Positions 1 through 17,402 of a stretch of 56,646 bases of DNA are shown here, one piece after another. The first letter of the stretch is position 1. The number at the start of each line of letters is the position of its first letter. The stretch is from Dehalococcoidia bacterium (GTDB taxonomy: Bacteria; Chloroflexota; Dehalococcoidia; Lucifugimonadales; UBA3495): the NCBI GenBank assembly GCA_012959605.1, contig DUCU01000128.1, forward strand, positions 417 to 57,062, read 5' to 3'. A program made the position numbers and the translations under genes. Below the pieces are notes generated by a model that did not search any database, was not told the origin of the DNA, and was given only the letters and a program-made list of their open reading frames with translations.

Positions 1-453
1 AATGGCTTCGTCCGCTCCCATGCGTCCCACTGGGCCCGTAGCATACATTGCGCCCAGCACCGTGCCGCCTCGGCCCAATAGGAACTCTGTGGGCTGGATG
101 TAACCGCCTCTGTCTTCTGACCACCATGATCCTAGCATGTCGCCGTCGGCTTTGGTTGCGGCGTAAGCCATAGGAAAAGTCAACTTATTGTTGTCGACGA
201 CTTCCTGGGCCAGTTCTTTGGTGTCAACGCTGACGGCATAGATGGTAACGTCCAGTTCCTCCAGCGCAGATTTGTTCGCTTCCCACTCGGCTAACTGCCG
301 ATTGCAGTAAGGTCACCAATGGCCTCGGTAGAACAGCAACGCTGTGTACCGGGTAGGTGCGTCGTCGGGTAAGGTGATAGTTCCTCCATCCAGCAGCTGG
401 AAGGTGACCTTTGGAAGACGATCCCCTTGTAGTAATTTCTCTCCCATTATCAT
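1..453 (-). CDS. Selenocysteine-containing peroxiredoxin-like protein (partial)
   Basis: AhpC/TSA-fold thiol peroxidase, expected to reduce hydroperoxides in the cytosol. The frame from ATG at 453 is open to the window edge except for one TGA at codon 47 (313-315), inside FYRGHW-TGA-PYCNRQL. Family members have FYRGxWCPYC there, so the TGA replaces the peroxidatic cysteine and gives a UxxC site with Cys50 as resolving partner. Conserved sequence continues after it (for example YAVSVDT, SWWSEDRGGYIQP, FLLGRGG), so this is not a true end. TGA ends other genes here, so the code is not reassigned. A hairpin fitting the bacterial SECIS model follows the codon. The SD-like GAGGA precedes ATG 453, and ATG 447 is an alternative start. 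The C-terminus lies outside the window. Selenocysteine insertion is inferred; the TGA in place of Cys is seen directly. Confidence 0.82.
287..301 (-). other. Candidate bacterial SECIS hairpin
   Basis: Counting from the base after the TGA at 315-313, nucleotides 12-16 (UCGGC) pair with 22-26 (GCCGA) around the loop AGUUA. The loop starts 17 nt downstream and has G at its second position. This matches the published bSECIS model: small stem, G in the first two loop positions, loop 16-37 nt after UGA. The pseudogene copy keeps four of the five pairs. The pairing is seen; the role is inferred. Confidence 0.6.
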
Positions 454-594
454 TCCTCTATCGCTTCAAATTATGAAATATCTAGCACTTCAAATATTTC
501 TCTTCTGCCATGAATTGACGCCCATGCACAATTACCCGAAAACAAAAGTATCAACTCGTAAGGATTAATTCCGCTGGCCAAATTGGCTTAATCG

Positions 595-9738: not shown

Positions 9739-10210
9739 ATGACCATCGGCGAAAAGCTACAACAGGGAGATCGTCTCCCCAAGATCACCCTCAATCATCT
9801 GGAAGGTGGGACGCTAACCCTGCCAGATGATGCACCCACATGATATACAGTTCTGCTGTTTTTCCGGGGACACTGGTGACCCTACTGCAAACGGCAGTCA
9901 GCCGAATTGGAAGCAAACCGAGCTGAATTAGAAGCTCTGGGCACAACGATTATCGCTGTCAGTGTCGACAACGCGGAACAGGCCGGTGGGATGATTTCAA
10001 GTTCACCATGGCCTACGGCGCCACCAAATAGGACGGCGAATTAATTGGCGCATGGTGGTCTGAAGACCGAGGCGGTTACATACAACCGGCCGAATTTCTA
10101 TTGGGCCGCGGCGGCGTGGTGCTTGGCGCCATGTATGCCTCTGGACCCGTGGGACGTATGGGGCTGATGAGGCGGTACGCCTGATCACCGACCGCGAGAA
10201 CCGACGCTGA
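9739..10210 (+). pseudogene. Decayed second copy of the selenocysteine peroxiredoxin
   Basis: It aligns codon for codon with 453-1: ATG after AAGGA, then MTIGEKLQQGDRLPKI, LEGGTLTLPDDAPT and FFRGHW-TGA-PYCKRQ. The TGA at 9877-9879 is codon 47, exactly as in the other copy, and the downstream CGGC-AGUCA-GCCG hairpin (9892-9904) persists. Inactivating changes include TGA at codon 35 (CGA or CGG to TGA; Arg in the other copy), a deletion and frame change near 9984, TAG at 10027 and a frameshift near 10160. The original end was probably ITDRENRR then TGA at 10208. Being broken, it is a fossil that supports the selenocysteine reading of the first copy. Confidence 0.8.
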
Positions 10211-10275: not shown

Positions 10276-11088
10276 ATGAGTAACCAACAGGTGGTAGACC
10301 TGATGGAGCACGTCTGGAGTTCCATAGAATCTTTGTGCTCTTCCTTTGATGAAGTCCAATGGAAAACCCCCACAGATTGTCCTGGTTGGTCAGTCCAAGA
10401 CCAGATATCCCATCTGGTCGGCGCTGAGTCAGACATTCTAGGAAATCCCCGCCCCGACCACACACCGCAAAATACCCCCCACGTCAAAAATGATGTCGGC
10501 GAGTCAAACGAAGTCGTTGTCGACTTTCGTCGCTCGTGGACCGGCCTTGAGGTTTTGGAAGAGTTCCGGGTCTTGACCGAATTACGGATGGAATTCTTAA
10601 AAGGCCTGACGGATGAGGGTTTTGCAGCGGAGACCCAAACTCCGTTAGGACCGGGCACCATCACTGATCACGTCCGCATTCGAATCATGGACGCCTGGGT
10701 TCACGAGCAAGATATCCGACGGGCACTGAACATCCCGGGTGGACTGGACGGGCCTGTGGCTGCGCACTCAGTGGGCCGGTTCACGAACGCTATGCCATTT
10801 GTGGTCGCCAGGAAAGCCCAAGCCCCGGACGGCTCCACTGTGGTATTCAACGTCACCGGTCCTGCCGGCCGGGTGGTCTCAGTAGTGACGGACGGACGCC
10901 GTGGCAGTGAAATAGATTCGGAACCGGAGTCTCCCACAGTCAGAATCACATGTGACGTAGAAACCTTTGCCTGCTTGGCGTGTGGACGCGGGGACCCTTC
11001 AGAAGCGCTGTCTTCCGGCAAAATTACCCTCTCCGGCAACACAGACCTGGGCGAAAACATCGTTCATCAGATGAATATCATGATCTGA
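10276..11088 (+). CDS. Maleylpyruvate isomerase-family mycothiol-dependent enzyme
   Basis: 270 aa with TTGGAGGAGAG before the ATG. The N-terminal DinB-like four-helix domain (about 1-160) includes CPGWSVQDQISHLVG and IMDAWVHEQDIRRAL, whose histidines match the metal-ligand positions of the family. The C-terminal SCP2-like domain covers about 170-265. Known members use mycothiol, an actinobacterial thiol, for isomerisation or other thiol-dependent steps; which thiol this organism has cannot be told from the window. It lies directly downstream of the peroxiredoxin pseudogene in the same direction. Confidence 0.8.
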   Translation: MSNQQVVDLMEHVWSSIESLCSSFDEVQWKTPTDCPGWSVQDQISHLVGAESDILGNPRPDHTPQNTPHVKNDVGESNEVVVDFRRSWTGLEVLEEFRVLTELRMEFLKGLTDEGFAAETQTPLGPGTITDHVRIRIMDAWVHEQDIRRALNIPGGLDGPVAAHSVGRFTNAMPFVVARKAQAPDGSTVVFNVTGPAGRVVSVVTDGRRGSEIDSEPESPTVRITCDVETFACLACGRGDPSEALSSGKITLSGNTDLGENIVHQMNIMI

Positions 11089-16498: not shown

Positions 16499-16528
16499 CG
16501 GTCAATCACATTCCATGACTAAAAACCA

Positions 16529-16898
16529 ATGGCAAATGTTTATTTAGATAGGCTATCGGCGTTCCTGACAAAAATTCCAGGTGTACCCGGCGACGTCCAC
16601 CTAGAGTGCAAACATCTCTTTGGTGGCGCTGCTGCTCTTTGCAGAAGGTCGCATCTGTATGTCACTAACTCCTATGGGATTGGCGCTGAGACTCCCGCCC
16701 GAAACAAAAGAACGTCTGTTGGCGGTTAGTCAGGCAGAACCGTTAAGATATTTCCCTAATAGTCCGATTAAAAAGGATTACGCACTGTTTCCTGGCGGGG
16801 CAGTCGAAAGTGATGAAACATTCGACTAGTTGACATTAGAAAGCATCCAATATGCCCTAAGTTTGCCAAAACCTAAATCAAAGCTGCAAGCGCGTTAA
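16529..16898 (+). pseudogene. TfoX/Sxy N-terminal-domain protein, broken
   Basis: The first frame reads LSAFLTKIPGVPGDVHLECKHLFGGAAAL, then a frameshift near 16637 moves homology to LFAEGRICMSLTPMGLALRLPPETKERLL and RYFPNSPIKKDYALFPGGAVESDE. A TAG at 16827 interrupts it before LTLESIQYALSLPKPK, which ends at TAA 16896. The order and spacing match the small TfoX N-terminal domain family (about 110 aa). At least one frameshift and one stop make it non-functional. Confidence 0.7.
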
Positions 16899-16983
16899 AA
16901 CTATCCAGATACATCATTTCAAAAGGCCTTGGCTATGCTGTGTTGGTGAGCCCGCACTCACGCGTAGCCATAGCTAAAATCTC

Positions 16984-17012
16984 TTGACACCAAAATCTAG
17001 TTGTGATATTTT
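16984..17012 (+). promoter_or_regulatory. Promoter of the alternative complex III cluster
   Basis: TTGACA (16984-16989), a 17-bp spacer and TATTTT (17007-17012) form a near-consensus sigma-70-type promoter. Transcription would begin near 17020, giving a leader of about 85 nt before the first gene at 17106. Confidence 0.65.
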
Positions 17013-17105
17013 TCACCTGACCTCTAAGTAGGGGTATTTTTACGCGCGGCTCCCTTCGTGGGAATGCCTGTAAGAATGGCGATATAAGACAACCAACGAG
17101 AATCC

Positions 17106-17402
17106 ATGTTCGACGACCCTAAAGCATTAAATAGCACCGATTGGCAAAACATCCACATGTTCTTGCAATGGTTCTGGATTTATCTCCCTATTGTCCTGAC
17201 ATTTGGCGTCACCTTGCTAACAGCCCACGCTCTGATTCCCTCGTTAATCATCACTGGCCACCTCCCGGAGTCGGCTCACAAGGTCCGTGTCCCGATGACA
17301 GGGTTCGCCGCTCTTGTCTTTGCGGCCGGTGTGGTTATCTTGATTCTTGCCATCAACGCTCAGTTAGATGTTCAGAACATTTGGCCCAGGGTTTTTGTCT
17401 AA
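17106..17402 (+). CDS. Small membrane protein at head of the complex III operon
   Basis: 98 aa with two clear membrane helices, FLQWFWIYLPIVLTFGVTLL (about 18-45) and TGFAALVFAAGVVILILA (about 66-84). No family recognised. Its place immediately after the promoter and before the pentaheme cytochrome suggests an accessory subunit of alternative complex III, comparable in position, not sequence, to the small extra subunits found in some of these complexes. Function is inferred only from context. Confidence 0.6.
   Translation: MFDDPKALNSTDWQNIHMFLQWFWIYLPIVLTFGVTLLTAHALIPSLIITGHLPESAHKVRVPMTGFAALVFAAGVVILILAINAQLDVQNIWPRVFV

Follow-up and report, generated by a model that had tools for sequence, protein, structure and literature searches.

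A Prx-like UxxC selenoprotein gene with a bSECIS hairpin in SAR202-type Chloroflexota

At the left edge of the window, the whole stretch of 56,646 nucleotides analysed here, a peroxiredoxin-like frame is broken by a TGA codon in its redox motif. The locus poses two questions: is this codon read as selenocysteine (Sec), and which residue of the active site would the Sec replace? The minus-strand frame from 447 to 1 is interrupted by this TGA only (positions 315-313, at FYRGHW-U-PYC), and its translation with TGA as U gives the product MGEKLLQGDRLPKVTFQLLDGGTITLPDDAPTRYTALLFYRGHW-U-PYCNRQL.... The gene comprises the following features:

1 to 447, minus strand: N-terminal 149 codons of the Prx-like UxxC selenoprotein gene, assigned from the TGA=U translation, full-length homologues and a PF00578 match of 68 bits
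Outside the window, partly within an assembly gap: last ~20 codons of the UxxC gene
454 to 459, minus strand: AGAGGA, probable ribosome-binding site of the ATG at 447, from reading of the sequence
313 to 315, minus strand: TGA assigned to selenocysteine, which as residue 45 opens the motif U-P-Y-C (47 TGA and 3 Cys in 50 distinct homologues)
304 to 306, minus strand: TGC for Cys48, which closes the UxxC motif, is invariant and matches in alignments the peroxidatic residue of true peroxiredoxins

An earlier, sequence-only reading had proposed that a TGA takes the place of the Cys of FYRGHWCPYC in a frame that is otherwise open and conserved on both flanks. Both points were confirmed: the TGA, at 315-313 of the minus strand, stands where W-C-P-Y-C has its first Cys, and the nearest relative is 90% identical. 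That reading started the gene at 453, an in-frame ATG two codons upstream of the better-supported ATG at 447-445, which is favoured because the AGAGGA ribosome-binding-like site lies 6 nt 5' of it and because homologues begin there, likewise with the N-terminus M-G-E-K. Sec45 aside, Cys48 is the sole Cys among the 149 visible residues. To the left, the gene continues past the window edge into the assembly gap, a stretch of Ns in the contig; beyond the gap its frame finishes with EEQAG and then TGA, so that UGA probably serves this gene as both its Sec codon and its stop codon.

The protein was matched in 53 of 118 related genomes, almost always with one internal TGA. In an alignment that included Cys-containing homologues, as the sequence-only reading had advised, the Sec column is TGA in 47 sequences and Cys in 3; the set comprised 50 distinct homologues with an identity of 44% or higher. 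Cys48 is invariant among them, and the motif, UPYC in the gene under study, also occurs as USYC, UGYC, UPCC and UPPC. A TGC or TGT misread as TGA, which that reading had named as fatal to its Sec proposal, is ruled out because the TGA is kept in 47 distinct homologues. A diverged UxxC paralogue group, 38% identical and also with TGA, is found in other genomes of the order (L155, G104:C12; L157, G056:C2).

A hairpin lies just past the UGA:

287 to 301, minus strand: bSECIS hairpin UCGGC [AGUUA] GCCGA, its loop starting 16 nt past the UGA, with frozen synonymous codons and a covarying outer pair

Published limits for bSECIS elements are a stem of 4-16 bp, a loop of 3-9 nt, a G in the first two loop positions, a distance of 16-37 nt from the UGA and an MFE of at most -7.5 kcal/mol (PMC13188914). 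With a 5-bp stem, a 5-nt loop and GU at loop positions 2 and 3, the hairpin at 301-287 agrees with all of these, as the sequence-only reading had said of its loop and distance, and its energy of -7.6 kcal/mol falls marginally inside the limit. Folding of some 60 nt after the TGA, the check proposed at that time, was uninformative, as the fold of 61 nt scores within the ordinary range (z -0.49); the hairpin folded with short flanks gives z -2.9. When flanking bases are left out, a strict hairpin scan misses the element on energy, and a scan with flanks was used instead. No SECIS was found over the window by Rfam at the gathering threshold, where only a tRNA matched.

The loop rule alone is weakly specific, being passed by 3% of background codons in the strict scan and by 21% in the relaxed scan. 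It is comparative evidence that decides whether the hairpin is a bSECIS. Across the 47 Sec sequences, the R-Q-L-A codons that form it, and no other part of the gene, are frozen at synonymous sites (CGG in 45/47, CAG in 47/47, only TTA or TTG in 47/47, and GCC in 44/44 with Ala), whereas Leu and Arg codons outside the hairpin vary freely. Averaged over the hairpin codons, the entropy deficit comes to -1.41 bits; the next best four-codon stretch reaches -0.29, and a value as low was seen for 1 of 100,000 random column sets (1e-5). The outer stem pair is T-A in 11 sequences, G-C in 26, C-G in 3 and G-T in 1; these 41 paired cases of 47 compare with 21.0 expected by shuffling, and none of 5000 shuffles reached 41 in a test that ignores the kinship of the sequences. 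The hairpin is not kept in the Cys homologues. On this comparative evidence, the hairpin is a bSECIS, and selection acts on it as RNA.

The parent genome (G000) is a SAR202-type Chloroflexota MAG of 2.8 Mb in 134 contigs, 92% complete, with SAR202, Dehalococcoidia and Chloroflexi MAGs as its nearest named relatives. The sequence-only reading had called for a search for selA, selB, selC and selD, and all four are present: a tRNA-Sec with anticodon TCA (67 bits), selB (350 bits), selA (563 bits) and selD (375 bits), the last of which itself holds an in-frame TGA. As for genomes with a Cys-bearing homologue, G091 (91% complete) has neither selA nor selB over cut-off, and G104 has SelB, tRNA-Sec and a second copy of the gene with TGA. 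SelA is below cut-off in five TGA-bearing genomes. In four of them SelB passes its cut-off; the remaining one, G010, is 78% complete. The occurrence of TGA in several frames of the parent genome might also be explained by a genome-wide reassignment of the codon, e.g. to Trp or Cys. However, TGA falls at redox-active Cys positions in the examples read, standard stops leave the long ORFs of the window unbroken, homologues end with TGA as well, and tRNA-Sec, SelA, SelB and SelD are all encoded. Genome-wide recoding was rejected on these grounds and carries next to no probability.

The window also holds a decayed relative of the gene:

9745 to 10166, plus strand: decayed second copy of the UxxC gene, in which the Sec TGA survives along with most of the hairpin

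Its decay is marked by a second in-frame TGA (Arg in homologues), a frameshift and a TAG, and it lies directly upstream of an MDMPI_N gene (DinB-like, mycothiol-enzyme-like) at 10276-11088. This copy, together with the fragmentation of the MAG and the position of the intact gene against an N gap, would be in keeping with a pseudogene or assembly error in which the TGA arose by nonsense mutation or stands for a TGC/TGT called wrongly. Such an origin does not sit with 47 distinct homologues, from many independent assemblies, that share the same TGA between conserved flanks, nor with frozen hairpin codons and a full Sec machinery; it was rejected as refuted by the TGA conservation and is exceedingly improbable. 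The intact gene adjoins two thiamine-diphosphate enzyme halves and a Zn-ribbon protein, with a tRNA-Ser on the far side, and no functional link between it and these neighbours is apparent. Inspection of the 642-base gap at 16499-17140 for another TGA gene gave none that was convincing; at 16529-16829, overlapping frames look like a single small gene broken by a frameshift, perhaps TfoX-like on visual inspection.

Reading of UGA 315-313 as selenocysteine is strongly supported by comparative sequence evidence, and confidence in it is high, because the machinery, the conservation of the TGA, the frozen hairpin codons, the covarying outer pair and the Cys homologues without the hairpin all point the same way.

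An AGUU apical loop is found at 5 of the 8 Sec UGAs examined in the parent genome (hairpins L027, L029, L032, L034 and L035), against 16 of 7959 background codons. The motif was picked after it had been seen in the gene under study, so that only the seven other UGAs count as a test, and four of these carry it. It is tempting to speculate that SAR202-type bacteria use a lineage-specific SECIS, with a short stem and an AGUU loop, in selenoprotein genes of many kinds; this proposal is tentative and is offered as somewhat doubtful. If true, it would imply that SelB in these bacteria reads the loop by a fixed rule. Other contigs of the genome, whose selenoproteome was sampled by family search and not exhaustively, hold more TGA-containing redox genes (L030, L031, L029, L032, L034, L035 and L149), with the motifs FTAGUTT (Prx), GGGNUTR (Prx-like), UVPU (a double-Sec Prx-like protein), TWUPVC (TlpA-like), TYCUINC (NHL/thioredoxin) and SYTUPPF (deiodinase-like), as well as SelD.

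The second question concerns the place of the Sec in the active site. The protein matches AhpC-TSA (PF00578) at 68.4 bits against a cut-off of 26, and Redoxin is also matched. Its AlphaFold model, predicted with confidence (pLDDT 92.8), has peroxiredoxins as best structural matches, namely Bcp4 (TMq 0.87) and other Prx. In alignments with PDB 2cx3 and 6q5v and with Prx and Prx-like proteins of the same genome, two of which carry TGA at their own peroxidatic residue, the peroxidatic Cys or Sec (the C of FTGVC, the U of FTAGU and the U of GGGNU) falls on Cys48, and Sec45 falls where the Prx TxxC motif has its Thr or Ser, or on the equivalent residue. The protein combines a peroxiredoxin fold with a thioredoxin-like UxxC site. 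Of the sequence-only interpretation, the Sec reading stands, as machinery, conservation and SECIS agree on it; the placing of Sec at the peroxidatic position is not supported, as the alignment puts that residue at Cys48 and Sec45 on Thr. That interpretation had also predicted a faster peroxidase, which is one possibility and not a consequence, since Sec45 is not at the peroxidatic position.

Sec selenols can react directly with peroxides, and this, with the Prx fold as best structural match and the PF00578 and Redoxin matches, would favour a true peroxiredoxin in which Sec is the peroxidatic residue and the enzyme is faster for it. This is quite unlikely given the alignment of the peroxidatic residue with Cys48 and the lack of the PxxxT/SxxC(U) motif: in R41-GHW-U45-PY-C48, Arg41 stands for the Pro and Sec45 for the Thr, and a Gln-Pro of TlpA/thioredoxin type is aligned at the position of the conserved catalytic Prx Arg, ahead of the last core strands, in an alignment that is only 17-25% identical. 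The invariance of Cys48 and its alignment with the peroxidatic residue would favour instead a peroxidase with Cys48 as its peroxidatic residue and Sec45 only resolving. A Sec at the resolving position in nearly all homologues would be unusual, though, and the protein again lacks the active-site Pro and Thr of Prx, so that this too is an unlikely account.

The explanation that best covers the whole, and that is considered very probable, is a Prx-like UxxC selenoprotein in which UGA is read as Sec via the bSECIS, with Sec45 as nucleophile and Cys48 as resolving residue. By analogy with established SelB biology, SelB would bind the hairpin and bring Sec-tRNA to this UGA and not to UGA stops. The motif and fold suggest that Sec45 would then attack a disulfide or peroxide substrate, that Cys48 would close a Sec45-Cys48 selenylsulfide, and that a thioredoxin-type reductase or thioredoxin-like partner would reset it. 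Peroxide may be a substrate, and a peroxidase role is kept in consideration because the fold is closest to true peroxiredoxins.

New in this analysis are the SAR202-wide conservation of the gene, its decayed second copy and the AGUU loop common to several SECIS hairpins. A literature search returned nothing specific on SAR202 selenoproteins, and the papers searched say little for this group. The findings suggest that several redox proteins of SAR202-type Chloroflexota depend on selenium. They also correct gene calls for a widespread ocean lineage, as standard callers would truncate or drop the gene in some 45 relatives.

When compared with known systems, the gene is, by its sequence features, a new member of the Prx-like thiol:disulfide oxidoreductase selenoprotein family (PF00578, UxxC) known since 2005. 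That family was reported as 'Prx-like' in the Sargasso Sea set in 2005 (PMC1088965), listed as 'Prx-like 1' in the GOS set in 2008 (PMC2398784) and listed as Prx-like thiol:disulfide oxidoreductase thereafter (PMC9312934, PMC13188914); the thiol:disulfide oxidoreductase assignment is computational and listed as predicted (PMC13188914). The likeness to the family (pfam00578, UxxC/UxxU) lies in PF00578, a Sec first in UxxC, a bSECIS right after the UGA and an origin in marine bacteria (PMC1088965, PMC2398784, PMC9312934, PMC13188914), and the GOS 'Prx-like 1' is likened by its published description. The literature keeps Prx (TxxU) and Prx-like (UxxC) proteins apart. PrxU (TxxU) shares the fold and a Sec in the active site, but its Sec is peroxidatic, whereas Sec45 aligns with the Thr and the Prx-site Pro, Thr and probably Arg are absent; the name Sec-peroxidase should not be given to Prx-like proteins of the UxxC type. 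The SelL-related NF040769 proteins and the AhpC-TSA_2 UxxS selenoproteins are similar in that their Prx-like fold carries a site of the CxxC/UxxU type or a UxxS site; at 28.9 bits against a cut-off of 120 the protein is not an NF040769 member, and a match to PF13911 (AhpC-TSA_2) is not listed in its Pfam search. Finally, TlpA, ResA and StoA, which are membrane-anchored or secreted, share a redox motif of the WCPPC/WCPYC type, and StoA (3erw) is the best PDB sequence match (E 2.9e-5), but the predicted fold of the UxxC protein is closest to Prx.
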